From [Ruminococcus] torques ATCC 27756 (GTDB lineage: Bacteria; Bacillota; Clostridia; Lachnospirales; Lachnospiraceae): a stretch of DNA of 64,000 bases. The stretch covers positions 1 to 64,000 of the forward strand of contig NZ_DS264347.1 of the NCBI RefSeq assembly GCF_000153925.1. Reading direction: 5' to 3'. The position numbers and the translations under genes were made by a program. Each line of letters begins with the position of its first letter. Position 1 is the stretch's first letter. Of this stretch, positions 2,042 to 13,137 are shown in pieces. The notes beneath the pieces are model-generated. The model did not search any database, was not told the DNA's origin, and saw only the letters and a program-made list of their open reading frames with translations.

Positions 2042-4495
2042 CTATTTTCTTCTGTTCTTTCTGTTCCCTGCCGATAAGATTGCGATCATCCCGCCTGTCA
2101 AAATGACAAAGAAAATATAAACTGCCGGATCTGTTTTGTCACCGGTTTTCACAGAAGCCGTTTTGTCTGATTCTTTCCGCGGCTCTTCTGTTTTGCCTGC
2201 TGCTTTTATCACCGCCGTTTCTTTATGACCACATACAGTACAGCTCCGCTCTTTTCTTCCGTCCTTTTTCTCTGTCGCTTTCTCTGTCACTTTCCATTCT
2301 CCGAATGTATGCTCTGCCACATCAGTTTTATTTTTACAGATCGTACATTCGTGCCAGTGAACCTTTCCGTCCGAACTCCATTTTTCTTCATATTCATGCG
2401 GCGTCACCGTACATTTAACAGGATCGCTCTTCGCGCCTAAAGAAGTTAACGTTGTTCCGTCTTTTTCCAGAACCGCAAATACTTCAACAGCGTAGTTTCC
2501 GCTTTCTGTAACTTCCAATTCCGCAGAAACAGCTCCATTTAACAACGCTCCGTCTTTGTACCACCGATAAAGATAATTCACCTGCTTTGTATCGTGTTCT
2601 GCCGAAGCTTTCAGCCGGATCTTTTTGCCGATGTGTACAGTCTTGCAGTCTGCCGTAACGGTTACATTTTTCGGTGCTGAAAGTTCTTCTGCATTAACAA
2701 GTTCATATGTTTTAGATCCGTCTTCATGAACAGTTTCTTTTACGATCATTCCGTCAATTCCGGATGTCACTTCCAAAACGACTCCGGGAGCAACTGTCAA
2801 TATTACGTTTTCTCCTTCCAAAGCTTCCTGTTTTACAGAAGAGTTTTCGTTAATATATATGTGAATATTTCCGTCTTCCGTATTCGATCCAAGCGCTTCT
2901 TCTACTGTATTATAATATGTTGTCTTTCCGTCTCTGTCCGTTGCCGCAGCAGCTACATCCTTTGCAACTTTTACGGTAGTATTGGATTTCATTGTGTCAA
3001 GAGTCTTTTTATCCGGATCAAAACGGGTCGTATTATCTCCGCTTGTAATTACTTTGACCGCACCTTTTCCTGCTGCCGGCTGCAAAGATCCGCCTGTCAC
3101 AGAAATATCTGCTCTCACATCTGATTTTTCTTCTGTATTATAGATCGTGACCGCATTACCGTTTACGCTTTTAAGCGTTCCACCGAGAATATTAACGACA
3201 AGAGAAGAATCATTGATGCAGCCGTCGTACATCTGCGCCGATCCAAGAAACGCTGAACCTTCAGGATTTGCCCCACCGTTTTGCGGCTTTTCTTCTTTCC
3301 ATTCGCCGCTTCCTGTGATGACCGCATTATCCTTGATCGTAATTGTTCCCATTTTTGCTTCGATCCCGGTTCCTCCTTCGATCACCGCATTGCCGCCGAT
3401 CGTAAGTTGTCCTTCCATCGGCCAGTAAATAGCTGTTCCGCCCGATATATTTTTCAGGCTTCCGCCTGTGATCGCAACTTCCGCTCCTGCCGACTCCTGA
3501 TTGTTTCCCGAAACCGGAAAATCTTTTGTCTCGATCCTACCGCCTGTAATCTCTACTTGCGCCGATACAGTACCTTCTTCGTTTCTGTTGCTGTTAAACA
3601 CATCGATCCCGCCGTTTCCTGACAGCACCGCATCCCCCGAAAGAGTCATCTTTGCTCCGATCAACTGAACCGCAGATTTCCCTTCTCCTGCTGCCATAAG
3701 ATGGGCCGATGCGCCTATATGCACTTCGCCGAACTGTGAAAGAACCGTATTTCTTGCTGATGCCGTCAACGTACCGCCTGTGATGTTCACGATTCCGCCT
3801 ACATTCTGCACAACTCCCTGACCGGTGATCTCACTGCTTTGGATATTTAAAACCGCGCCGCCGGTATTATTGATCATGATCAGCGGGTACGTTCCCACAC
3901 TGCCATCAATCTTTCCGCTTCCGACAATATTGAATGTTCCCCGATTCGTAAACATAAAATTGCCTTTGAATCCTGCTGCCGCCGATACAGTAAATCCATT
4001 TGTATCTAACGTCACATTCTTTGTCAGCAAGATCGGTTGTGAAACTTCTGCATTTTCTAAAAGCCGCAGTACGTCCCCGTCTTTTGCCGCTGCAAATGCT
4101 TCGGTAAGAGTCGGATATATCTGCTCTCCGATCTGAACTTCCCCTGCCGTCCTTTCCTCCGCCTGTACATCGACTGCATCTGAAGCTTCTTCGGCTTTTT
4201 CTGTATTCTGCCGTACCGCTTCCAAAACACCCTGTTTTGCCTGATTTTGTCCTTCTGCCTGCACATCCGATTTTTCTTCATTCTGTGTTTCTGCCGTCAT
4301 ATCCGGCATTTCTGCTGATATTTCTTCCTTTTGTGTTTCTGCTGTCACATTCGGCGTTTCTGCTGATATTCCCGCTGTCGGCGCGATATTTTCGCCTTCT
4401 TCCACTGTTTCTGCATTTGCCGGAATTCCAGCCGGGATCATCATAGCCGCCACAGTTAAAATAACCAGCCATTTCCTAATAAATTTGTTTTTCAT
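2042..4495 (-). CDS. Sortase-type cell-surface protein with beta-helix-like repeats
   Basis: An 817-aa secreted protein. Start chosen at 4495 because AAAGGAGAG lies just upstream; an in-frame ATG at 4516 sits inside that ribosome binding site. Residues 1-29 form a signal peptide (KNKFIRKW, hydrophobic core, ANAE). A Glu/Thr/Gln-rich linker with near-repeats of an AETQ-type unit follows. Residues of about 120-480 consist of short repeats (GGTL, GNAVIEGG, ITGG) typical of right-handed beta-helix surface proteins. Near residue 710 there is a HWHECTICKN and CTVCGHKE pair, a four-Cys likely metal site common in clostridial surface proteins. The C-terminus has SVKTGD, a hydrophobic helix and a basic tail, a variant of the (S/P)PxTG sortase signal. 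Ligand unknown. No sortase gene is in the window. Confidence 0.75.
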   Translation of the reverse strand: MKNKFIRKWLVILTVAAMMIPAGIPANAETVEEGENIAPTAGISAETPNVTAETQKEEISAEMPDMTAETQNEEKSDVQAEGQNQAKQGVLEAVRQNTEKAEEASDAVDVQAEERTAGEVQIGEQIYPTLTEAFAAAKDGDVLRLLENAEVSQPILLTKNVTLDTNGFTVSAAAGFKGNFMFTNRGTFNIVGSGKIDGSVGTYPLIMINNTGGAVLNIQSSEITGQGVVQNVGGIVNITGGTLTASARNTVLSQFGEVHIGASAHLMAAGEGKSAVQLIGAKMTLSGDAVLSGNGGIDVFNSNRNEEGTVSAQVEITGGRIETKDFPVSGNNQESAGAEVAITGGSLKNISGGTAIYWPMEGQLTIGGNAVIEGGTGIEAKMGTITIKDNAVITGSGEWKEEKPQNGGANPEGSAFLGSAQMYDGCINDSSLVVNILGGTLKSVNGNAVTIYNTEEKSDVRADISVTGGSLQPAAGKGAVKVITSGDNTTRFDPDKKTLDTMKSNTTVKVAKDVAAAATDRDGKTTYYNTVEEALGSNTEDGNIHIYINENSSVKQEALEGENVILTVAPGVVLEVTSGIDGMIVKETVHEDGSKTYELVNAEELSAPKNVTVTADCKTVHIGKKIRLKASAEHDTKQVNYLYRWYKDGALLNGAVSAELEVTESGNYAVEVFAVLEKDGTTLTSLGAKSDPVKCTVTPHEYEEKWSSDGKVHWHECTICKNKTDVAEHTFGEWKVTEKATEKKDGRKERSCTVCGHKETAVIKAAGKTEEPRKESDKTASVKTGDKTDPAVYIFFVILTGGMIAILSAGNRKNRRK

Positions 4496-4729
4496 CTTAC
4501 TCTCCTTTCCCACCATACATAATCGTCATGCATTAAGTGTTTTTTCTTTAATAATACGATGCTTTTTCTGCTTCTTCAATATATTTTCAGTAAATTCCGA
4601 CTTTATTTACAACAATTAACCATTCTATCTCAAAACGCCTGTTTCATGACCTCTCCTGAAATCCATTTAAGTTATGTTCCGTTTTTATCGAAACTTTTCA
4701 AATTTTTTCAAAAAATAACTATATTTTTC

Positions 4730-4758
4730 TTGACAAATCCGATATGAATAGGTATTAT
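4730..4758 (+). promoter_or_regulatory. Sigma-A promoter of tRNA-Trp
   Basis: TTGACA (4730-4735), a 17-base spacer and TATTAT (4753-4758) lie about 37 bases before the tRNA, giving a start near 4765. Confidence 0.75.
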
Positions 4759-4794
4759 ATACAAGTGACTTGCGATAAGAAGTCAAACATACAT

Positions 4795-4865
4795 AGGGGA
4801 TTGGTCAAATGGTATGATAGGGGTCTCCAAAACCTTTGGTGGGAGTTCGATTCTCTCATCCCCTG
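4795..4865 (+). tRNA. trnW: tRNA-Trp (CCA)
   Basis: The acceptor stem AGGGGAT (4795-4801) pairs perfectly with ATCCCCT (4858-4864), followed by discriminator G. The anticodon loop CTCCAAA gives anticodon CCA, tryptophan. The T-arm contains GTTCGATT. The 3' CCA is not encoded. The last 21 bases are repeated at 11275-11295, so the 3' end of this gene is the integration site of the element that follows and is kept intact by it. Confidence 0.93.
4845..4865 (+). repeat. attL: tRNA-Trp 3' end at the left junction
   Basis: A 21-base sequence starting GTTCGATTCTCTC and ending CCCCTG is present here and, identically, at 11275-11295. It covers the T-loop and the acceptor stem of the tRNA. Direct repeats of a tRNA 3' end flanking a tyrosine integrase gene are the signature of site-specific integration. 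Confidence 0.88.
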
Positions 4866-4876
4866 TTGACCGAAGA

Positions 4877-4914
4877 GTCAGAAACCTTGAATTTTCAAGG
4901 CTTCTGGCTTTTTC
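4877..4914 (+). terminator. tRNA-Trp terminator supplied by the element
   Basis: GTCAGAAACCTTGA (4877-4890) pairs with TCAAGGCTTCTGGC (4895-4908) across a short loop, followed by TTTTTC. It lies inside the element, and a related hairpin stands just outside the right junction at 11307. Confidence 0.8.
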
Positions 4915-4933
4915 ATTTCCCGGGTAATTCCAA

Positions 4934-4955
4934 TGTAGTTAAGTATGTAGTCAAA
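4934..4955 (+). repeat. Candidate integrase arm sites, left end
   Basis: TGTAGTTAAG (4934-4943) and TGTAGTCAAA (4946-4955) are spaced 12 bases apart between attL and the integrase gene. Three further copies lie just inside the right end at 11192-11222. Repeats near both ends of an element fit the arm-type binding sites of a tyrosine recombinase. Confidence 0.5.
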
Positions 4956-4967
4956 CAGGAATCATTC

Positions 4968-6206
4968 CTAAAATGAGATAGCATTTTCAATCTGTTTTTC
5001 TTTGTTTTTCGTTGTTTTATTGCTGAAATAATATAATTTTTTTGTTGTACTGATATCACTGTGTCCCATTTGTTCTGTAATAAATCCCTCATCTACATCA
5101 CTATCTATTAAGGTTGTTCCGTAAGTCTTTCGTATCTTGTGCATGGTACGATGTGGGATATGTAATTCATTACATATTCTGGACAGTCTTTTATTAAAAG
5201 TATTTCCTCTGATACGTTTTCCGTTATGCTCGAATAAATATGTTCCTGATGTATTCAGTTCCAATATTTGATTCAACGTATCCAGTGCGGTAGAGGATAT
5301 GATTAAATCCCGATTACCAGCGTCTGTTTTAGCGTGTTCTTTTACAGCTACAATCCATTTATTGTTTTCGTCTCGGTATTTATCTTCGGTACGTCTGATT
5401 TTAATAATACGTCCGTGTAAGTCTTCTTTCTTTAGAGTGCTTAGTTCACCGACACGTAAACCTGTCTGAAATGTAAGCAGAATACCAAGATTATAAATAT
5501 CCGGCTTTGCTTTCAGACGTTGAATAACTACGGGAATTTCATCTTCCATAAACACTTCTTTCTGCTTGTCTATAATCTTCCGTTTAAAAAGATTATTCGG
5601 CAATTCCAAATCTCCAAAAAATTCAGTGATACTGATTGCAGTATACTTTTTCTTCTTACCGTATTTGAAGATACCACGAATCAATGTCCGTAATCCGGCA
5701 TATGCCTTTCTGGTAAGTGTAAGGTCACGAATGGTGCATTTGATAAATACTTCCAAATCATCTTCTGTGACATTTTTAAATTTCTTTTTGGTAATTGAAA
5801 CAGAAGTGTAGTGGAAAAATCTTTTGTAATCGTTCACGTATCTGTCATAAGACGCTTTCTGTATCTCGCTGAAATCCAGTTTGCGGTTTATCCATTCATA
5901 GAAAACATCATCAATATAAATTTCTTCCTGTAGAGCCTTGTAAAACTCTACAATGACATTTTCCAGTTCTTCACGGGTATTTCTGCGTCTGTAAAGTCGT
6001 TTTCCGTCTTGTTGTGGAAGATACGTGGAATAAATTTCTTTTCCCGATTTGTCTGTTGTTACTGTAATTGCGTAAACATGCTGTGCAAGTATTTCCTTTC
6101 TTTCCATATCTGCTATATCATTCAGCATGGTATCTAAAGAGATTATACCTGTTTGGATTGCGTAATTCAATAAATCTGTATCGTCATAAGCGTTGGGTTC
6201 AGTCAT
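4968..6206 (-). CDS. int: Tyrosine recombinase (integrase)
   Basis: A 412-aa site-specific recombinase that would integrate and excise the element at tRNA-Trp. The catalytic set is complete: Arg251 in TGLRVGEL, a Lys near 293 in EHAKTDAGNR, HxxR at 356-359 (HKIRK), His382 in MGHSDIST and the nucleophile Tyr392 or Tyr393 in KLYYFSNK. Residues of about 105-185 form a SAM-like core-binding domain, and the N-terminal 60-70 residues may be the arm-binding domain. Gene and tRNA converge, with the stop codon about 100 bases from attL, the usual layout. The ATG at 6206 has no strong ribosome binding site, so the start is uncertain. The 149 bases upstream contain nothing I recognise. Confidence 0.92.
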   Translation of the reverse strand: MTEPNAYDDTDLLNYAIQTGIISLDTMLNDIADMERKEILAQHVYAITVTTDKSGKEIYSTYLPQQDGKRLYRRRNTREELENVIVEFYKALQEEIYIDDVFYEWINRKLDFSEIQKASYDRYVNDYKRFFHYTSVSITKKKFKNVTEDDLEVFIKCTIRDLTLTRKAYAGLRTLIRGIFKYGKKKKYTAISITEFFGDLELPNNLFKRKIIDKQKEVFMEDEIPVVIQRLKAKPDIYNLGILLTFQTGLRVGELSTLKKEDLHGRIIKIRRTEDKYRDENNKWIVAVKEHAKTDAGNRDLIISSTALDTLNQILELNTSGTYLFEHNGKRIRGNTFNKRLSRICNELHIPHRTMHKIRKTYGTTLIDSDVDEGFITEQMGHSDISTTKKLYYFSNKTTKNKEKQIENAISF

Positions 6207-6355
6207 AAATTACATCAATATGATAAGGGTATTGTCTCAAAATATCTTTTTTCTCTTTAATTTTTTCTATGTATAGTTAATGCCCTGTATTTTTTAATTT
6301 TAAATTTATATTGTCATTTATCTGGTATTATGGGCGAATCATTCAGATATTTCGC

Positions 6356-7450
6356 TTACTCATTATCAGAATAACTCCTTTCTGTTATTGGTAGTTTGGA
6401 AGATTTTTTGTAATCTTCATAAATTTTTATCTGGGTATCATTCATCTTTGCCTGTTCGATTAATACCTGTATATAATCGCAGTTATCCAGTTCTCCGATT
6501 TTTGAAAATAATTTTAAAGACGGAGCAACGGAACTTTCTAACCAGTTCCAGATACTATCAAGTGTCTTTTTCTGCGGTTGAATTGTCAGATTTATTTTCT
6601 CTATATCTTGCATAAATAATTCCCAAGGGGGATAAGTAGGATAAAGTCTTTTCCGTGAAGTGGATTTGTTTTCCGGCTGTTCAAGAAAACGGATTTTACC
6701 ATTTAGTACAGACATTGCAATTTCTGCAACATCACGTCTGGCGATTAATTCTTGCACAACTATATTTGCCCGTTCCTGTCGGAATCGCAGTTCATATCTG
6801 TTCCAGTTCGGGTCTAATTCTTTGCCAAATTTTTCTGCCTGTTCGTACCCTTTTTCATAGAAAATGATTCGGAAATCACTGTTGCTACTCCCAAGATAAA
6901 GCGTGTTTCCTTTATGAACAGGTATTGATTCACTTAATTCACCAGAAGCATTTTCAGAATAATTACGTAACTGACTAGATATTAAGCCTTGCTTTGTTAA
7001 ACGTATCAGTTCCGGAATGTTAAGATATGGTTTATGGTCATCTATTGCTAAATCAATTCGTGGAAAATTCACATGATACTGACATACCCTTGCGAAGAAA
7101 TCAAACCATGTTTCTTTGTTTATCACAAGGAAGTTTTCATAATTTCTACAGCCAGAGCCACTCATTAATATCTGAAATCCATTATACTGCATTTTGCCAG
7201 TTGGTTTTAGGATCTTGATATTATCAAATCCGGCAACCAGTTCATGTCCGGCAATTCCTTTCCCTTTATTCTGAAGTTCCATAAGTGAAAGAGGAATTTT
7301 TAGGATATCCGTTATGACAGTGAATAAATCTACATCTTTCACTGTAATCTGACACCAGTCAATTAAGGCTGTCAGACTGTTTTTTTGTCGTGTTACCCTC
7401 CTGTTAGTATAGGAGGGTTTTGAAAGACCTGATTTACTTCTTTCTTCCAA
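6356..7450 (-). CDS. Replication initiation factor (Rep_trans-like)
   Basis: A protein of about 364 aa resembling the Rep_trans replication initiators of small plasmids and the Tn916-type relaxase-replicases. The N-terminal segment SLTALIDWCQITVKDVD and the later FPRIDLAIDD and WNRYELRFRQER segments fit that family, which nicks one strand at a double-strand origin and starts rolling-circle replication. I place the start at a TTG at 7450 because AAAGGAGG lies 8 bases upstream; an in-frame TTG at 7573 would add 41 residues but would translate through two perfect hairpins. The upstream DUF961-like gene ends at 7549. The family is recognised from motifs only, and the catalytic tyrosine was not pinned down. 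Confidence 0.75.
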   Translation of the reverse strand: MEERSKSGLSKPSYTNRRVTRQKNSLTALIDWCQITVKDVDLFTVITDILKIPLSLMELQNKGKGIAGHELVAGFDNIKILKPTGKMQYNGFQILMSGSGCRNYENFLVINKETWFDFFARVCQYHVNFPRIDLAIDDHKPYLNIPELIRLTKQGLISSQLRNYSENASGELSESIPVHKGNTLYLGSSNSDFRIIFYEKGYEQAEKFGKELDPNWNRYELRFRQERANIVVQELIARRDVAEIAMSVLNGKIRFLEQPENKSTSRKRLYPTYPPWELFMQDIEKINLTIQPQKKTLDSIWNWLESSVAPSLKLFSKIGELDNCDYIQVLIEQAKMNDTQIKIYEDYKKSSKLPITERSYSDNE

Positions 7451-7469
7451 ATAATAATCCTCCTTTGCC

Positions 7470-7534
7470 GATAGTGGCAGAGCCACTATCCCCTGTCTCT
7501 TGCTGTCCGTTTGGTACGGACAGCAAGAGACAGG
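7470..7534 (-). repeat. Two adjacent perfect hairpins upstream of rep (candidate nick site)
   Basis: One hairpin has a 19-bp perfect stem, arms 7492-7510 and 7516-7534, with a 5-base loop. Next to it is a 9-bp perfect stem, GATAGTGGC (7470-7478) and GCCACTATC (7482-7490), with a 3-base loop. They lie between the DUF961-like gene and the rep ribosome binding site. Rep_trans proteins of pT181-type plasmids nick in a hairpin loop in or next to rep, so this is a candidate origin. An attenuator is the alternative. Confidence 0.6.
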
Positions 7535-7548
7535 AAGTTCATAGGTTA

Positions 7549-7878
7549 CTATGCATTTTTCTGAGAAATACAACGAATCCCTTTACAAGTTACACGCTCT
7601 ACCAGTGTAGGATAATTTCCTCTCTGAACATATGGAGCATAGACAGGTGTATCCAGTTCCACTACAGAATATGGTCCGATAGTTGGGATTTCTGTCATTT
7701 CCAGTCGAATATCAACACTGTTACCAAGTTTCATACTTCCAAGATGAAGTTTGACCGCTTCGATATCTTCGGTTTTCTTTCTGGTATCTTTGTCATAGCG
7801 GTAGCAATAATCAGCTCCCATATAACGAAGTTCCCCGAATACCTCTTTGACCTGTTCTTTTGTTAATGTAATCTGCAT
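7549..7878 (-). CDS. DUF961-like small protein of mobile elements
   Basis: A 109-aa protein with start chosen at MQITLTKEQ (7878); an ATG nine bases earlier is also possible, and AGAAAGG lies upstream of both. The C-terminal two thirds alternates beta-strand-like segments (VKLHLGS, VDIRLEM, YSVVELDTPVYAPYV), resembling the DUF961/Orf23-type proteins found beside the replication protein in Tn916-like elements. It is first in the minus-strand operon leading to rep and follows the two repressor operators. Function unknown; a role in single-strand DNA handling or origin use would be a guess. Confidence 0.55.
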   Translation of the reverse strand: MQITLTKEQVKEVFGELRYMGADYCYRYDKDTRKKTEDIEAVKLHLGSMKLGNSVDIRLEMTEIPTIGPYSVVELDTPVYAPYVQRGNYPTLVERVTCKGIRCISQKNA

Positions 7879-7952
7879 AAGCATTATCCTTTCTCCCCGT
7901 ATCACCGATAGGACAGTTGTCTTAATAAGTAATGAAATCCATGGACATTTAA

Positions 7953-8034
7953 AGTTTAGTTATTTCTAAACTGCTTAAATCATAGCATTGAGCAAAATGA
8001 AAATCAATACAAAGTTTAGAAATTTATAAACTTT
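7953..8034. promoter_or_regulatory. Two repressor operators between divergent operons
   Basis: AGTTTAG (7953-7959) with CTAAACT (7966-7972), and AAAGTTTA (8011-8018) with TAAACTTT (8027-8034), form two inverted repeats with the same half-site and centre spacing. They lie between the rep operon on the minus strand and the CI-like gene on the plus strand, so the repressor probably binds here to control both. Confidence 0.65.
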
Positions 8035-8116
8035 TTATTTTCTTTGAAGAGTATTTATGATATAGTGAGTACAGAAATGACAAATTAGCCACACAGAGAA
8101 AGTAGAGGATATCGGA

Positions 8117-8794
8117 ATGAATACGATAGCAGAACGAATCAAATTTGCGATGAATGTAAGAAATGTAAAGCAAGTGGAAATGGTACAGAGAACAGGAATT
8201 ACAAAGGGAGCGTTTAGTTCTTATCTTTCTGGAAATTACAATCCTAAAAAGGATAAACTGGAACTGATTGCTGACGCACTGGATATCAATATTAACTGGT
8301 TGATGGGTGAAAATGTGCCAATGGAAAATAGCAATGCTACAGATAATCAGACTACGGGATATGTGTTTTACAAAGAAATGGAATATTTATTGAACGATAA
8401 GGATACTGCATATATCGGATTTCAGACACAGTATGGGGCATTAATTCCAAGATATCGGATATATGTAGATGTCAGTTTAAATGAAATGCATATCGTACCT
8501 ATTTTTTTACGGGAAGATTCAAAAGAATGTTATCAATATCCAAAAGAACTTACTCAACCAGAATCATATGAGATATTTACAAGAGATTTTGCCAGTATTC
8601 ATATGACACTTGCCACTTCTCAGATATATTATTATGGAATCAATGAAAAGATATTAGAAATGGAAATCTCTTCGTTTGCCTATTCGTCCGAAAAAAATTG
8701 TTATGTAACGAGTGATTGTCAGCCTGTCTTGTGTGATGAATTTGTCCGTGAAATAGAAAAGGAAGTGCTTTATCTCCGGAAAGTTTCCAGATAA
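8117..8794 (+). CDS. CI-like XRE transcriptional repressor
   Basis: A 225-aa protein with an N-terminal helix-turn-helix (residues about 5-65: AERIKFAMNVRNVKQVEMVQ, TGITKGAFSSYLSGNYNPKK, LELIADALDININWLMGE), the standard XRE/CI DNA-binding domain. The remaining 150 residues match no domain I recognise; there is no obvious Ser-Lys autopeptidase motif of the LexA/CI type, so induction by self-cleavage is not supported. The ATG at 8117 follows AGAGGATATCGGA. It is transcribed away from rep, and the two inverted repeats upstream are its likely operators. It probably keeps the element quiescent. Confidence 0.8.
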   Translation: MNTIAERIKFAMNVRNVKQVEMVQRTGITKGAFSSYLSGNYNPKKDKLELIADALDININWLMGENVPMENSNATDNQTTGYVFYKEMEYLLNDKDTAYIGFQTQYGALIPRYRIYVDVSLNEMHIVPIFLREDSKECYQYPKELTQPESYEIFTRDFASIHMTLATSQIYYYGINEKILEMEISSFAYSSEKNCYVTSDCQPVLCDEFVREIEKEVLYLRKVSR

Positions 8795-8800
8795 CAGACA

Positions 8801-8919
8801 AGAGGACTTGCAAGGTTCGTGACCTTTCAAGTCCTCTATATAGCATGGTGGTATTGGATACCGTCCGTTCTGTCAAGGACTGCCCTGACGGCGTATCGGC
8901 TTCGCCTTGTTCCTTGACA
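8801..8919. repeat. Structured spacer with nested hairpins
   Basis: AGAGGACTTG (8801-8810) pairs with CAAGTCCTCT (8828-8837), and inside it AAGGT pairs with ACCTT, giving a 15-bp stem. After a gap, TGTCAAGGA (8871-8879) pairs with TCCTTGACA (8911-8919) and encloses GGCG/CGCC. No U-tract follows either stem. It may be a bidirectional stop between convergent genes, but the elaborate folding also fits a single-strand origin or transfer origin. Confidence 0.5.
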
Positions 8920-8942
8920 TCACTAGGTAGAAAAAGATAGTA

Positions 8943-10340
8943 TCATAACAAGGATTTTTCCTTTAAACGTTCTCTAATATGTATTTCGGTTAATGGTTCA
9001 TCAAAATCAACAGTTAATAAAGTTACCCCCTTTTCCCGACATATTCTTGCTTTTCTGAAATCGTGTTCTTTTTGCTTTTTCAACTGTTTTTCACCGCCCC
9101 AATGTTTGATTGGATTGTAATGTTGCTGTCCTTGATATTCTATTCCAAGTTTAATTGAATCAATATAAATATCTAATTCTAATCCCTCTAACCATTTAGG
9201 ACGATAATGTGTTTTAACTTCATAGTCGGGATAAATAGTTTTAATAATATTAGCCAAAGTTGTTTCACTGACCCAAGATTCACCTACATTTTTAAAACCA
9301 AATTCTTTTCTTACAGTGTTTTCGATACTTTTTTCAAATTCTCTTCTTGCTTCTTTAGCTTGTGTATACAAAATATCAGAGTTTGGATTAGCTTCACTTT
9401 GTTCACTGGCTAATATAAACTTATCCCAATATTTTAATATACTTTGAGGACATTTATCTCTGAGTATTAATTGCTTTTGTATATTAACATGTCCTTCTAA
9501 CATATAGTCTATACCATATTCTAAATACCGTTGTCGAATATACCAACCATATTGTCGTCTAAATGCAGTTCCATACATTGTTGAACAATATTCTTCTTGT
9601 GGTAATTTCCCATTGCATTTGTGACATATTTTACTTTTAAATTTGAATAAAGAAAGTGGATTCCCAGAATTTTTTGATGTTATTTCTTCTATAAGTTCTG
9701 GAAATTCGTCCGTTCTTAATACGATTTTTTCGTCTTGATGTCCGAAAATTTCTTGCCTTTTCTTTTCTAGCGCTATATAGTTTTGTATGGCTTGCTTTTC
9801 GCAATCACAAAAATAAATATCTTTAGATTCTCTAGATTTTTTAAAAGCGAAGAATCCTCCATATAAATCGGGGTATAAAACATAAGGAAATGGTAAATCT
9901 TCTAATGGTTCTTTAGGAATATACTCATAAAATGCATTAGGATTGATTAATTCACTATATTCACCTGCATTTGCTTCCAAAACTTTCTTAAAATGCCACA
10001 TATCCGTTTTTGTTTCAAATTTTTTCCCATTTAATAGTATGGTGACATTTTTCCATTTCCGAATTTTGGAGATTATGTATTCAATAAAAATAGTATTATC
10101 AATATATTCTTTGATGGTATTTATAGTAAAAGAATGGGATTCATTATTTTCCGTATAATTTGGCAATGTTTTAGCTTTGCCAATTATATCATCGTAATAT
10201 TTCGATTTAGTTTTTTTAAATTCAACATAAACGATATTATTGTTTGATAAATTTTCAGTGTTCCAAAATTTATCCGAAATACAATCTGGTATTTGAGTGT
10301 GTTCGTTATATCCCTCTATTGATAATTCCAAAAAATTCAT
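8943..10340 (-). CDS. Unknown protein with C-terminal PD-(D/E)XK-like nuclease domain
   Basis: A 465-aa protein I do not recognise as a whole. The C-terminus looks like a restriction-endonuclease fold: Glu359 (SWVSETTL), Asp390 in LELDIYI, then Glu401-Tyr-Gln403 in GIEYQGQQHY, and a trailing HDFRKARICREKGVTLLTVD, the arrangement of VSR-like and DUF559-type nucleases. The middle has Cys178-x-Cys180, CxxC at 239-242 (ICHKCNGK), Cys252 and Cys298, possibly zinc-binding. The N-terminal 170 residues are unassigned. ATG at 10340 follows AAGGAGA with about 10 bases spacing. The gene is strikingly AT-rich, and it is the element's main cargo. A defence or DNA-processing role is plausible but inferred from position and fold only. 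Confidence 0.6.
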   Translation of the reverse strand: MNFLELSIEGYNEHTQIPDCISDKFWNTENLSNNNIVYVEFKKTKSKYYDDIIGKAKTLPNYTENNESHSFTINTIKEYIDNTIFIEYIISKIRKWKNVTILLNGKKFETKTDMWHFKKVLEANAGEYSELINPNAFYEYIPKEPLEDLPFPYVLYPDLYGGFFAFKKSRESKDIYFCDCEKQAIQNYIALEKKRQEIFGHQDEKIVLRTDEFPELIEEITSKNSGNPLSLFKFKSKICHKCNGKLPQEEYCSTMYGTAFRRQYGWYIRQRYLEYGIDYMLEGHVNIQKQLILRDKCPQSILKYWDKFILASEQSEANPNSDILYTQAKEARREFEKSIENTVRKEFGFKNVGESWVSETTLANIIKTIYPDYEVKTHYRPKWLEGLELDIYIDSIKLGIEYQGQQHYNPIKHWGGEKQLKKQKEHDFRKARICREKGVTLLTVDFDEPLTEIHIRERLKEKSLL

Positions 10341-10415
10341 AATATGTTGGTCTCCTTGCTTTATTTTATAGGGCTATTGTAACATTGAACGATAGCAACT
10401 GCATACCATCATAAA

Positions 10416-10793
10416 CTATTCAACACAATTTTTTGTTTCCAATTTTCCATCGTCTGATGTATACATGATTTGAAATGTCATACAATTGTGTTGATAATGC
10501 CATTCAGTATTATATACTGATATAATAATTTCGTTCGGATAGCCTGTAATATCATAAGAAAAGCGAACATTTCTATACTTATTCCCAACTGCCTTTTCAA
10601 TGAGTACTTCTGCATATTTTTCTTTGTCCAAGATAAACAGCTTATTAGCAATAACATCGAACTCCTGTTTATAAAAAGTATCAGAAGTACTGACCATAGT
10701 GTTGACAGCTTGTTCTTCGCGTCCGTATTGTAAATATCCCAGAAGAGCAACAATACATATCAATATTACCATAATAATATAGCGTTTTTTCAT
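10416..10793 (-). CDS. Small membrane-anchored protein of unknown function
   Basis: A 125-aa protein with a short basic start (KKRY), one hydrophobic helix at residues 5-20 and a polar domain of about 100 residues that would lie outside the membrane. There is no lipobox. The domain mixes a Lys/Glu-rich helix (DKEKYAEVLIEKAVGNKY) with beta-like segments and carries two cysteines. AGAGGTG precedes the ATG. It lies upstream of the nuclease gene on the same strand, 75 bases away, so the two could share a transcript. The 20-base palindrome in front suggests repression by the neighbouring small XRE protein. Confidence 0.6.
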   Translation of the reverse strand: MKKRYIIMVILICIVALLGYLQYGREEQAVNTMVSTSDTFYKQEFDVIANKLFILDKEKYAEVLIEKAVGNKYRNVRFSYDITGYPNEIIISVYNTEWHYQHNCMTFQIMYTSDDGKLETKNCVE

Positions 10794-10810
10794 ACGACAC
10801 CTCTCAATTC

Positions 10811-10830
10811 AGTGTTCGTATACGAACACT
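10811..10830. promoter_or_regulatory. 20-base perfect palindrome, candidate operator
   Basis: AGTGTTCGTA followed by TACGAACACT is a perfect palindrome between the divergent small membrane protein and small XRE genes. It is the likely operator for one or both directions. The half-site order (GTTCG then CGAAC) is opposite to a Bacillus SOS box. Confidence 0.6.
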
Positions 10831-10877
10831 ATTATAAACGCTATTTTACGCTAATAATAATTACATAGCAAGGAATT

Positions 10878-10907
10878 ATGAAAGAAAGCGGAAAATTCGT
10901 GAGATGA
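10878..10907 (+). CDS. Possible 9-codon leader peptide overlapping the XRE start
   Basis: ATG at 10878 follows AAGGAATT and opens a frame of nine codons (MKESGKFVR) whose TGA overlaps the ATG of the XRE gene as ATGA. The XRE gene itself has no good ribosome binding site, so translational coupling through this leader is plausible. This is inference from spacing alone. Confidence 0.35.
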   Translation: MKESGKFVR

Positions 10908-11116
10908 TTAAATACGATAAATTATGGGAGACAATGAAAGCCAAAGGCATTTCACAATATGATTTGTATACGCATTATCATATGAACCGTTCTCAATTGA
11001 ACAGGTTAAGACATAATCAGAATGTTGAAGTGAATACCATTGATAAGCTGTGTAATATATTGGATTGTAATGTGGAAGATATTATGACACATTATCCAGA
11101 CGATAATGTATTTTAG
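10904..11116 (+). CDS. Small XRE/Cro-type regulator
   Basis: A 70-aa protein made almost entirely of one helix-turn-helix domain (YDKLWETMKAKGISQYDLYT, MNRSQLNRLRHNQNVEV, NTIDKLCNILDCNVEDIM), matching the short Cro-like HTH family common in Firmicutes mobile elements. It lacks a strong ribosome binding site and appears coupled to a nine-codon leader. The palindrome 75 bases upstream is a plausible binding site. It is the last gene before the right end, so it could act as a Cro-like counterpart to the repressor at 8117 or as a directionality factor. Neither role is shown by sequence. Confidence 0.75.
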   Translation: MIKYDKLWETMKAKGISQYDLYTHYHMNRSQLNRLRHNQNVEVNTIDKLCNILDCNVEDIMTHYPDDNVF

Positions 11117-11191
11117 AGGGGATATGAAGTGACGTATGAAAAAGATGACACCATGCTGAACGATTTCTCCTTTCTTGTTTTTTACCACCCA

Positions 11192-11222
11192 TGTAGTCAA
11201 AAGGTAGTCAAATGTAGTCAAA
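11192..11222 (+). repeat. Candidate integrase arm sites, right end
   Basis: TGTAGTCAAA (11192-11201), GGTAGTCAAA (11203-11212) and TGTAGTCAAA (11213-11222) repeat in the same orientation with 10-11 base spacing, and match the pair at the left end. Confidence 0.5.
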
Positions 11223-11274
11223 ACTCAATCGAAGAAATGCTTATTTTACGGGGATTGTGAGGATTTCCCACAGG

Positions 11275-11295
11275 GTTCGATTCTCTCATCCCCTG
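11275..11295 (+). repeat. attR: duplicated tRNA-Trp 3' end
   Basis: Identical over 21 bases to 4845-4865. It lacks the rest of a tRNA: the sequence just upstream does not fold as one. This marks the right end of the element. Confidence 0.88.
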
Positions 11296-11306
11296 CTTTC
11301 AGAAAC

Positions 11307-11345
11307 GCCGGAAGCCTTGATTTTTTCAAGGTATCCGGCATTTTT
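11307..11345 (+). terminator. Original chromosomal tRNA-Trp terminator
   Basis: GCCGGAAGCCTTGA (11307-11320) pairs with TCAAGGTATCCGGC (11326-11339), followed by ATTTTTC. It probably ended the tRNA transcript before integration. Its core resembles the hairpin at 4877. Confidence 0.75.
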
Positions 11346-11531
11346 CATTTTCCGGAAAATTCCTATAAGGAATGAAATAAAAAGAAAAATCAAACTATTT
11401 ATTGACACAGTGCTTAGATTCAATGCAATGATATTAAATCATTCGTTTTCGATAAATCAAATCTAATTTAAAGCAAAGACAAACAATAGATAAAAAAACA
11501 GCGAACAGCGCTTAGCAAGGAGGAACATGGG

Positions 11532-12050
11532 ATGGGAGAGATAATAAAATTTCTTATATATGCTATTTCTATGTGCGCCATAGAGCTCGTGATCAATTCT
11601 TTATATAACCGAAAAAGTATCACTGACAATGCCGGCCGGAATGAATTCCATTATGTGCTTAAAATCCCCGGAGCATTAAAATATACATGCATGGCTTTCT
11701 TCATTTTAGGATTATGCATGTTTTGCATCTTTTTTGTATTTAAACTACAGAATAATCCAACTGTAACAAACGGACACCTATGGATGTGTTTGGGGGTAAT
11801 GGCAATCGGTCTTCTTGGCATAATCCGGGCAAGCAAATGGAAGATCGCGGTAAACGGAAATCAGATGGAGATACAACGTTTATTTCGGAAAAGTATAGTT
11901 TTACAGATAAGTGAAATTGAACGTGTGGAAATCGGGAAAAAGAACCAACTACTTTTATACGCCAGCGGTAAAAAACTGATAACGATTGATTTTCTTACCG
12001 AGAATTATGAATACCTGGAAGAGACATTAAAAAGAAACGGGAAGTATTGA
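11532..12050 (+). CDS. Small membrane protein with PH-like domain
   Basis: A 172-aa protein. Start 11532 follows AAGGAGG with 8 bases spacing. An N-terminal hydrophobic stretch is followed by two strong transmembrane helices near residues 50-72 and 83-98. The rest (KWKIAVNGNQMEIQRLF, IVLQISEIERVEIG, LLLYASGKKLITIDFL) has the strand pattern of a bacterial PH-like domain facing the cytoplasm. Such proteins, e.g. the DUF6560-type, are widespread in Clostridia and their role is unknown. It stands alone just outside the right end of the integrative element and is not part of it. Confidence 0.65.
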   Translation: MGEIIKFLIYAISMCAIELVINSLYNRKSITDNAGRNEFHYVLKIPGALKYTCMAFFILGLCMFCIFFVFKLQNNPTVTNGHLWMCLGVMAIGLLGIIRASKWKIAVNGNQMEIQRLFRKSIVLQISEIERVEIGKKNQLLLYASGKKLITIDFLTENYEYLEETLKRNGKY

Positions 12051-12117
12051 CCGGCTCTGCGTATTTCCTCGCAAGCCGATCCAACTTCCCGCCTTAACAT
12101 TTCAAAAGTGTAACCTT

Positions 12118-13137
12118 TCAGGGATTACAGCTTTTACAGGGGCTGTACCCATCCTCAAGCAGCTTAGATCTTTTTCCTTTATATGGTTTCTTGTTTTTCT
12201 CTTTCATATCTTTCACCCCCGCACAATCCGGCCTGTGGAATTTATGTGTACTCGTATTTAAAATATACTCGCTCTCTACAGACACTTTTCCGGCGCCGGA
12301 TGTCCCCGCCGCCTCTTTTTCATCGTCATCTTCTGCTCTGTTATCTCCTGTTTTATAGTCAATGATAATATCCGGCTGTATATTGTACACATAAACATTA
12401 AACTTGATTCCCTTTCCGCCATCTTCTACAGATTCCGCTTCCATCTGTACTCCTGAAGCAACAAGATTTTCATTTTCAAATATAGGCGTTACACGATACA
12501 TCACATGATTATCTGTTTCATGCACATATTCTGCCACAAGATTTTCAAAAGGGAGCATTCCCTCTGTATTCATATACCGTGTTCCGGTAATCAGATTTTC
12601 TTCATTTGCATTTTCTCCGGACAACTGATACGCGATCAAATGGCAGCGATTATACAGCGATCCTCCCTCCACATTTTCATACCGAACAGACTGCCATCCC
12701 GTCGGCTTTACACTGCTGATATCACCGCGCTTTTCATCAGGCATCAGTTCTTCTCCCACGCACGCTTCTGCCGTCTGACATCTCCCGTAGCTGTCCAAAG
12801 GACTGTACTGCTCATAAACTGTCGTCGTCATCTCGTCCTCTGTAAACGCCGGCTCGTTTCCGTCCAATATCACGTATGGTTCTCCTTCATATTCCGGCAC
12901 TTCAACAGCAGAATCATAACTTTCTTCACTATATGCAGAATCAAAAATTTCTTTCTGAAGATTCTGCCATCCCTGCTGCCTGCCAACCCCGTTACCGCCT
13001 GTACCGCCGCCAAGCGCCAGTTCGGCAATGACTGCCGCTCCTGCTAACAGCGCACATGTACTCGTAATAATAATCCCTTTTTTCTCTTTGCCATCTTTGA
13101 TACTCCCATTTTTCCCGATCAGATATATTTTTTGCAA
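12118..13137 (-). CDS. Secreted DNA/RNA non-specific endonuclease
   Basis: About 339 aa as read. One hydrophobic helix near the N-terminus exports or anchors it. The core (residues about 110-240) is of the streptococcal DNase/EndA type: YGRCQTAEACVG, WQSVRYENVEGGSLYNRCHL with the catalytic-type His, then ENLITGTRYMN with the metal-binding Asn. The C-terminus (NTSTHKFHRPDCAGVKDM, CKSCNP) is a small Cys/His domain often attached to surface proteins. The only in-frame start is a weak TTG at 13137. One extra A in the A-run at 13078-13083 would join this frame to an ATG at 13094 preceded by GGGAG with 8-base spacing, giving a normal MAKRKKG signal start, so a one-base error is likely. Confidence 0.8.
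   Translation of the reverse strand: MQKIYLIGKNGSIKDGKEKKGIIITSTCALLAGAAVIAELALGGGTGGNGVGRQQGWQNLQKEIFDSAYSEESYDSAVEVPEYEGEPYVILDGNEPAFTEDEMTTTVYEQYSPLDSYGRCQTAEACVGEELMPDEKRGDISSVKPTGWQSVRYENVEGGSLYNRCHLIAYQLSGENANEENLITGTRYMNTEGMLPFENLVAEYVHETDNHVMYRVTPIFENENLVASGVQMEAESVEDGGKGIKFNVYVYNIQPDIIIDYKTGDNRAEDDDEKEAAGTSGAGKVSVESEYILNTSTHKFHRPDCAGVKDMKEKNKKPYKGKRSKLLEDGYSPCKSCNP

Follow-up and report, generated by a model that had tools for sequence, protein, structure and literature searches.

What kind of element occupies the tRNA-Trp gene near the start of contig NZ_DS264347.1 of [Ruminococcus] torques ATCC 27756, and by what means might it move between cells? The stretch analysed, hereafter the window, comprises the first 64 kb of this contig (positions 1 to 64,000), and within it a 6.4-kb segment with seven open genes lies between two exact copies of a 21-base direct repeat, GTTCGATTCTCTCATCCCCTG. 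The genes encode an integrase of 412 aa, a PF02486 protein, a 110-aa protein, a cI-like repressor of 225 aa, a nuclease-like protein of 465 aa, a small protein of 125 aa and a helix-turn-helix (HTH) protein of 70 aa. We consider the segment likely to be a compact MobT-type integrative mobilizable element (IME), exploiting the transfer machinery of integrative and conjugative elements (ICEs) of the Tn916 superfamily. It possesses its own site-specific recombinase with exact att sites, together with its own relaxase and origin of transfer (oriT), both assigned by homology only, and no mating-pore genes. Pfam and NCBIfam searches of the seven proteins returned no mating-pore or coupling-protein family, and neither the TcpA nor the FA-type type IV secretion system (T4SS) that would mark a Tn916-superfamily ICE; no packaging or capsid-interference genes, as would mark a phage-inducible chromosomal island (PICI) or other phage satellite, were found with PHROGs.

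Ends, integrase and copies at tRNA-Trp

The tRNA-Trp(CCA) gene that serves as attB (4794-4866, + strand) was called by ARAGORN and matched the Rfam tRNA model at E 3e-11. Its last part forms the attL core (4845-4865), repeated exactly as the attR core (11275-11295, both + strand). One other 21-mer is directly repeated exactly in the whole window (42565/42586), and the chance expectation for a given 21-mer is about 3e-8 per 128 kb of strand at equal base frequencies. The tRNA gene stays complete because the element supplies the tRNA 3' end. Directly beyond it lies an element-borne, terminator-like hairpin (4880-4913, + strand) resembling the sequence after attR; the region 4881-4934 is 80 % identical to the right flank 3' of attR, and integration would therefore leave tRNA-Trp with both a 3' end and a terminator. 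The look-alike sequence also follows the core in loci L061, L068, L073 and L064, which belong to 28 loci recovered when a relaxase alignment was scanned against 84,980 species, each represented by a single genome.

The closest of these loci, L061 of Hominisplanchenecus faecis, carries the same element in tRNA-Trp with both 21-nt cores exact. Identity to the window is 96.9 % over 4795-8926 and 92.7 % over 10453-11295, whilst the intervening 8927-10452, which holds the nuclease cargo, is exchanged for other genes, one with a DUF2716 domain. Similarity is limited precisely by the tRNA start (4795) and the end of the right core (11295), and no flank match to L061 was found within window positions 3500-13000 at E 1e-4. 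The H. faecis tRNA-Trp beside the element (L061:10615-10687) is 92 % identical to that of the window over 72 nt and is still called as a tRNA.

A preliminary description made from the letters of the window (the sequence-only reading) had given the element exact ends, formed by a 21-base repeat of the tRNA-Trp 3' end, and a complete tyrosine integrase at its left. Both descriptions hold: the repeat is exact and the similarity to L061 ends at the same borders, and the 412-aa open reading frame (ORF; 4968-6206, - strand; PF00589 E 4.9e-19, PHROG integrase E 2.4e-37) spans positions 5-170 of the 172 in the Pfam Phage_integrase model and is 99 % identical in the H. faecis copy. That reading had also proposed searching other hosts for the element and related genomes for empty sites. 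The element withstood the refuting conditions which that reading had set, for the same genes lie at tRNA-Trp between direct repeats in another genus, and element-free tRNA-Trp loci do occur in congeners. The latter are species other than the host, however, and all three (L039, L040, L042) carry GTAATCA-like repeats directly after the terminator, possibly left by another element. Two of them, L039 of G009 and L040 of G013, share the gene surroundings of the window, although the tRNA there runs the other way with respect to the adjoining genes, and the 9-10 kb around it contain no match to the window integrase; in G033 (L042) the tRNA has the window orientation, with a remnant of the downstream gene about 0.7 kb later. 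Alignment over the joined junction was rejected as sole proof of an empty site, because the occupied loci L061, L068 and L073 align too, the element carrying a terminator look-alike. Orientation of tRNA-Trp varies among congeners: the genes that follow its 3' end in the window, L037 or L042 are found on the 5' side in L036, L039, L040, L043, L047 or L068.

Short repeats lie at the two ends of the element and are presumed to be of the integrase arm type, on the left at 4934-4954 (TGTAGTTAAG, TGTAGTCAA) and on the right at 11192-11221 (three TAGTCAA), both on the + strand. All three occurrences of TGTAGTCAA in the 64 kb are at the element ends, as are 4/4 in L061 and 4/4 in L068, and it is likely an integrase arm site. 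An integrase was recognised in 25 of the 28 loci, and the types differ. One type lies at tRNA-Trp in the window, L061, L068 and L073; a further copy of this type, in L064, has at its integrase-side end (L064:4241-4264) a core that no tRNA gene precedes, pointing to a secondary site or a tandem arrangement. A second type often adjoins a gene that we take to be leuS.

Relaxase, oriT hairpin and HelP-like partner

The gene on which the assignment turns is mobT (6356-7480, - strand; start uncertain, TTG at 7480 or 7450), whose product combines Rol_Rep_N and Rep_trans domains (PF02486 E 1.1e-60, PF18106 E 4.8e-26) as expected of a MobT-type relaxase or rolling-circle initiator. It matched the NCBIfam MobT model at E 4.6e-58 (197 bits); among the seven proteins one other match bore a transfer name, that of the repressor to TrbA, which was weak and lay in the HTH (E 0.013). 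In the PDB, a sequence search at E 0.01 gave a single entry, 4cij ('GST REP'; E 7.3e-24), which we take to be RepSTK1. An N-terminal HTH, present in most ICE members, was not found in the relaxase with Pfam, and NicK of ICEBs1 is likewise described as having none (PMC9371924). Residues D72, D177, Y252, K254, E257 and E280 of RelSt3 are reported to be important (PMC6499999); their counterparts by motif, D41, D143, Y208, K210, E213 and E230, are invariant in seven aligned sequences including that of the window. The PF02486 domain thus assigned by motif retains the acidic triad and the catalytic tyrosine of motif III, and D143, D147 and D148 of motif I are all invariant.

In a tree of 27 relaxases, the 11 from compact elements formed a single clade (100/99), which together with that of Isobaculum joined the Tn916- and ICEBs1-type relaxases with 97/97 support. 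Six plasmid Reps, several of them on long branches, fell outside this grouping, as did two further sequences, the relaxase of SAP077B and a C25 protein of the host itself. Pairwise identity of the window relaxase to ICE relaxases is about 29-35 %, and its best plasmid match reaches 35 %.

Within the 5' end of mobT lies a putative oriT hairpin, ACCCTCCT-ATACTAAC-AGGAGGGT (7395-7418, - strand), with a predicted CT'AA nick between 7406 and 7405 on the - strand. The nic site of the superfamily is described as a CT'AA lying in the loop of a hairpin rich in G/C (PMC9371924), and the window hairpin has this form. Of the 28 genome_contigs loci, 26 have it by similarity, likewise towards the 5' end of mobT; in L085 it was recognised by pattern only, and the sequence of L086 ends before it. 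An ICEBs1-like circle, a Tn916-like ICE and SAP077B each show a CTAA hairpin within or next to their relaxase gene. Covariation was assessed on 20 distinct sequences, made up of 16 lineage members, L085 and three ICE-type records; three of eight pairs were doubly changed, amounting to 12 cells. None of 500 shuffled alignments reached 12 cells, 41/500 reached three pairs and all reached the number of pair types; versions slid along the alignment gave 0 cells at five shifts and 3 cells at one. A separate perfect inverted repeat of 19 bp with a 5-nt loop (7492-7534; folding z -9.1) occupies the gap between mobT and the gene upstream. It is possibly a relaxase-binding site, a role we leave undecided because the hairpin is not kept in all relatives examined, an imperfect counterpart being present in only some of them.

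The upstream gene (7549-7881, - strand) encodes the 110-aa protein, which had no Pfam match at E 1. DUF961 was matched weakly by 15 of 21 aligned family members (best E 0.0081), and comparison of profiles with six annotated YdcP/DUF961 proteins of ICEs gave a probability of 95.8 and E 7e-9 over 101 columns; the alignment behind it (A4) has low diversity and takes in L085, which is more distant. The fold model of the protein (pLDDT 90.4) is most similar to PDB entry 2k5d, SAG0934 (probability 1.00, TM 0.63, E 0.029), followed by single-strand-binding proteins, with no PDB match reaching E 0.001. By profile and fold the protein is a HelP-like (DUF961/YdcP) protein with an oligonucleotide/oligosaccharide-binding (OB) fold. 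SAG0934 is described as a HelP homologue identical to Tn916 Orf22, and expression of nicK and helP as enough for replication from the ICEBs1 oriT (PMC3542172); the ICESt3 homologues of HelP are reported to be relaxosome components required for conjugation (PMC12614216). The gene accompanies mobT in 26 of the 28 loci, in L085 at a distance of 1.8 kb.

Putative switch, structured sequence, cargo and relatives

Divergent from this mobilisation operon is the gene of the cI/RstR-like repressor (8117-8794, + strand; HTH_19 E 1.4e-6, PHROG transcriptional regulator E 9e-18). Between them lie two operator-like palindromes, AAAGTTTAGTTATTTCTAAACTGC (7951-7974) and AAAGTTTAGAAATTTATAAACTTT (8011-8034), sharing the pattern AAAGTTTAG...CTAAAC; counterparts, including one of the first palindrome, are present in L061 and L074. 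Repressor and palindromes together would constitute a lysogeny-like switch.

The roughly 130 nt 3' of the repressor gene (8795-8926) form a conserved, non-coding structured sequence, in which a terminator-like hairpin of cI is followed by a second, branched hairpin. It is better conserved than its surroundings (88 % identical in a G010 element vs 67 % for the surrounding 2.5 kb) and was found in 23 of the 28 genome_contigs loci; in three of the remaining five it is cut by contig ends (L064, L071, L086), in L088 it is broken and L085 lacks it. The 26 aligned copies, from which near-duplicates and one fragment were excluded, fold as repressor terminator plus branched hairpin. Using a structure derived from the same alignment, five of 27 pairs were doubly changed (14 cells), with 0/500 shuffles as high on either measure and slid versions giving 0, one of them 1. 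Folded as DNA, the strand in the mobT sense is slightly better (z -5.2 vs -4.5); taken as RNA, the second hairpin by itself does not stand out on the + strand (z -0.97) and folds better on the - strand (z -2.8). In Rfam, nothing but the tRNA reached the gathering score across 4700-11500, and no listed match fell within 8795-8926. The sequence had no match among plasmids and one among phages (MT839987), and against the DNA around four ICE-type relaxase genes (L089-L092) its best match was at chance level (E 0.032). Our best guess is a single-strand origin (sso), an idea that draws on position, conservation and structure, since similarity to ICE regions is at chance level; alternatively it may be an RNA.

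A cargo slot, the content of which varies between copies, follows the structured sequence on the side of the right end. In the window it holds the 465-aa protein (8943-10340, - strand), with C-terminal similarity to homing/VSR-type endonucleases (PHROG homing endonuclease E 2.2e-10 on residues 385-448), which is absent from the H. faecis copy. Relatives of this nuclease occur in 64 phage records, of which only four match over 80 % or more of its length; SPbeta-like Staphylococcus phages account for four records with 27 % identity over 93 %. Twelve of 200 family genomes, the host included, carry relatives, the other 11 over C-terminal parts only, and none was confirmed in viral_contigs. A fold predicted from the single sequence without an alignment was unusable (pLDDT 37.9), and PDB searches gave two very weak matches to replication-primase/helicase chains (E 0.065, 0.085). 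PADLOC returned no match for the nuclease, and its matches of the two HTH proteins were confined to the HTH region. To the right follow the 125-aa protein (10416-10793, - strand), judged by eye to be probably membrane-anchored and 78 % identical in L061, and the HTH_26 Cro/C1-type regulator of 70 aa (10904-11116, + strand; PF13443 E 1.7e-17), 94-100 % identical in L061, L068 and L030. Relatives of the 125-aa protein are encoded in L068, L074, L080, L082 and L084, mostly beside an HTH gene (L074:5813-6450, L080:5815-6255, L082:5816-6453, L084:5814-6451) as in window positions 10416-11116.

Most of the 28 loci have the backbone in common, in a recurring order: HelP-like gene, mobT, in some a xis-like gene, and integrase on one side; repressor, structured sequence and cargo on the other. 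A sister element with a third integrase type was 99.9 % identical over about 6.27 kb, with differing flanks, in Coprococcus comes, Eubacterium ramulus, Lactonifactor longoviformis and congener G018 (L063:4466-10738, L066:4466-10732, L067:4468-10732, L034:7990-14255), a degree of identity indicative of recent spread between genera. Six of ten cargo proteins had a PADLOC match at E 1e-5 (an FRG protein, a GmrSD protein, a type II restriction enzyme, a methylase, Vsr and a DEDDh-nuclease protein) and four had none, although this is no estimate of frequency because the ten were picked partly for their defence-like look. Cargo genes in sister elements include those of a restriction enzyme together with methylase and Vsr, of an FRG/GmrSD pair and of a DEDDh exonuclease protein (L069:3557-5710, L076:3841-6538, L080:3898-5766).

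Other elements were seen along the way. A second, truncated element of the lineage on host contig 35 (L007:7976-10817) has its HelP-like gene cut, and neither repressor nor structured sequence was found in it. On host contig 25 (L008:12176-15879), a gene resembling integrases is clustered with one for an HTH repressor-like protein and one for a distant PF02486 protein (25 % identical), perhaps as a further small element. In G023, a different tRNA-Trp element (L037:6557-14838) has an integrase 55 % identical to that of the window, at the opposite end relative to the core; read by eye, its relaxase has an HTH-like N-terminus, and genes resembling those of ABC transporters and of a transposase are also present. 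In G008 (L030:7165-11858 with L050 and L051), a prophage of about 39 kb in tRNA-Trp, with portal, major head, tape measure and endolysin matches among ten proteins scanned, lies in tandem with a decayed relative of the element, which has kept its right end and structured sequence and in which no integrase or relaxase match was found. Left of the tRNA in the window, imperfect 48-nt repeats (4233-4364) fall in the coding part of a long ORF (2042-4516).

Proposed mode of transfer, rival explanations and known systems

We propose that, in the integrated state, the cI-like repressor would silence the operon of HelP-like gene, mobT and integrase through the two operators. Once repression is lifted, the integrase would recombine the two 21-nt cores, aided by the arm repeats, to give a circle and a restored tRNA. 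The relaxase would then nick the oriT hairpin at CT'AA, within the 5' end of mobT itself, and, with the HelP-like protein and the host PcrA helicase, drive rolling-circle replication to yield a single strand. As the element encodes neither coupling protein nor mating pore, this relaxosome would have to be offered to the TcpA and T4SS of a co-resident ICE of the Tn916/ICEBs1 superfamily. In the recipient the strand would be closed, made double-stranded, perhaps from the candidate sso at 8795-8926, and integrated at tRNA-Trp, with the tRNA 3' end and the terminator both supplied by the element. The cargo, lying to the right of the structured sequence and inside the right end, is exchanged among copies.

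Several observations weigh against this proposal. Excision, replication and transfer are steps that we infer. At 197 bits, the MobT score lies far below the 600-bit equivalog cut-off, and on sequence comparison the relaxase is a distant superfamily member outside the MobT equivalog group. The oriT hairpin stands within coding sequence, which constrains it too, and the nic hairpin is also described as the double-strand origin (dso) of Rep_trans plasmids (PMC9371924), so that sequence alone cannot tell a relaxase from a pure replication protein. No putative xis-like gene of the two kinds seen in sister elements (our own reading of two small genes) was found in the tRNA-Trp type; the 70-aa HTH gene as a substitute excisionase is a weakened candidate, because L074 and L082 carry both an HTH gene of the same type and a xis-like gene. 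TcpC was not found in the host genome, and its three FtsK-family matches fall in two proteins (frames of 858 and 1526 aa), neither TcpA-like by size and presumably SpoIIIE and EssC; therefore no fitting helper was seen there. Host VirD4-type matches each cover less than half of the profile. Genomes of 11 of the 28 loci were searched for TcpC as named hosts, and eight were without it; it was present in three of the 11, and the H. faecis genome has two TcpC genes. Among 58 congeneric genomes nine have TcpC, three of these with partial matches only, and of the ten carrying a compact-type relaxase (at least 300 bits) three have a TcpC match, full-length only in G018. A helper is thus present in some hosts only, and mobilisation of the Tn916 type is what we infer.

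It seems improbable to us, if still worth weighing, that the segment is an integrated rolling-circle plasmid, in which the Rep_trans protein merely replicates a circle, the hairpin acts as dso and spread is by transformation or transduction. Small-plasmid Rep_trans proteins are described as nicking the same CT'AA hairpin (PMC9371924), many plasmid matches of the relaxase are annotated as replication initiators and no coupling protein is encoded; yet the relaxase groups with those of ICEs, apart from the six plasmid Reps tested (several with long branches), the HelP-type gene is as widespread in the 28 loci as noted above and is present in four ICE-type records, and a distant Rep_trans protein of a streptococcal IME is reported as required for conjugative transfer (PMC7563843). 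The protein may also both replicate and mobilise, as NicK does. Far less credible is a dead island, the product of a single past integration that is now immobile and retained for its cargo: the host has no visible TcpA-type helper and the other copy of the lineage in its genome is truncated, but the backbone ORFs are open, motif residues intact and cores exact, and a 97 % identical backbone carries different cargo in another genus.

The sequence-only reading had offered a phage satellite and a mobilisable island as its two guesses, and the second is the one that stood. We give next to no credence to a PICI-like satellite using helper-phage capsids, despite the size, phage-type repressor and tRNA site of the element, the G008 prophage in tandem with a decayed relative, the very weak primase/helicase matches of the nuclease and the filing of one sister element as 'Bacteriophage sp.'. 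No packaging or capsid family was matched by the seven proteins (Pfam, PHROGs at E up to 0.1), and relaxase, oriT and HelP-like gene are present instead; we reject this reading on that ground. The 'phage' record (MT839987.1, 4.6 kb; L060) is a sister MobT element whose ends do not overlap and which includes some 155 nt of chromosomal flank also present in congener G018. An excised circle or phage was thus rejected for it, and the flank marks it as an integrated copy. The earlier statement that the element has replication genes and no conjugation or virion genes is right as to mating pore, coupling protein and virion, but the 'replication' gene is, from its domains and residues, a MobT-type relaxase with an oriT, a mobilisation gene. 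For this reason the element, for which that reading could name no family, can be placed among IMEs with a MobT relaxase and tyrosine integrase and no coupling protein.

The element is thus of a known kind, in a lineage apparently undescribed: nothing on this lineage was found by title and start of abstract among open-licence PMC papers. We tentatively raise a broader possibility, which we hold more doubtful than not, of an actively spreading Lachnospiraceae lineage of minimal IMEs of 5-7 kb. Its fixed backbone would comprise a HelP-like protein, a MobT-type relaxase with oriT inside its own gene, an integrase and a cI/operator switch, with a new type of sso bordering an exchangeable cargo slot that often holds anti-phage genes, making it a conjugation-borne counterpart of gut phage satellites. 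In the literature consulted, MobT IMEs are known mainly from streptococci, and replication genes of small islands are easily mistaken for plasmid or phage genes. The element, its oriT and its HelP-like partner offer a compact, testable model of how a parasite may exploit Tn916-type conjugation in gut bacteria, and a possible inter-genus route for nuclease, restriction and other anti-phage-like genes. For gut IMEs, the description of ImmeDB implies MOBT relaxases (PMC6907783), and PMC12904643 describes a different gut IME with a serine recombinase.

Among known systems, the streptococcal MobT IMEs (part of Class_IME_1, e.g. IME_Sag2603_tRNAlys) are described as an architecture lacking a coupling protein, of 5-18 kb but for one exception, with sites often at the 3' ends of tRNA or ribosomal-protein genes (PMC5357655, PMC5704250). 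The window element is like them in its tyrosine integrase, PF02486 relaxase and lack of a mating pore and differs in host group and tRNA-Trp site, a likeness drawn from the published descriptions. With the ICEs ICEBs1, Tn916 and ICESt3 it has in common a MobT-type relaxase, a CT'AA oriT hairpin and a nearby OB-fold protein of the HelP/Orf22 type, and the oriT lies inside the relaxase gene in the element, the ICEBs1-like record and SAP077B alike; unlike these ICEs it has no detected TcpA or T4SS, and it measures 6.4 kb vs 20 kb for the ICEBs1-like circle. Streptococcal IME_oriTs resemble it in that a distant Rep_trans relaxase is reported to serve IME transfer by MobT ICEs (PMC7563843), but they insert mostly into the oriT of ICEs and the window element into tRNA-Trp. 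Rolling-circle plasmids of the pT181/pSTK1 type share a PF02486 initiator and, as described, the same nick-hairpin rule (PMC9371924), whereas the element is chromosomal, carries an integrase and a HelP-like gene, and has a relaxase placed outside the tested clade of plasmid Reps.

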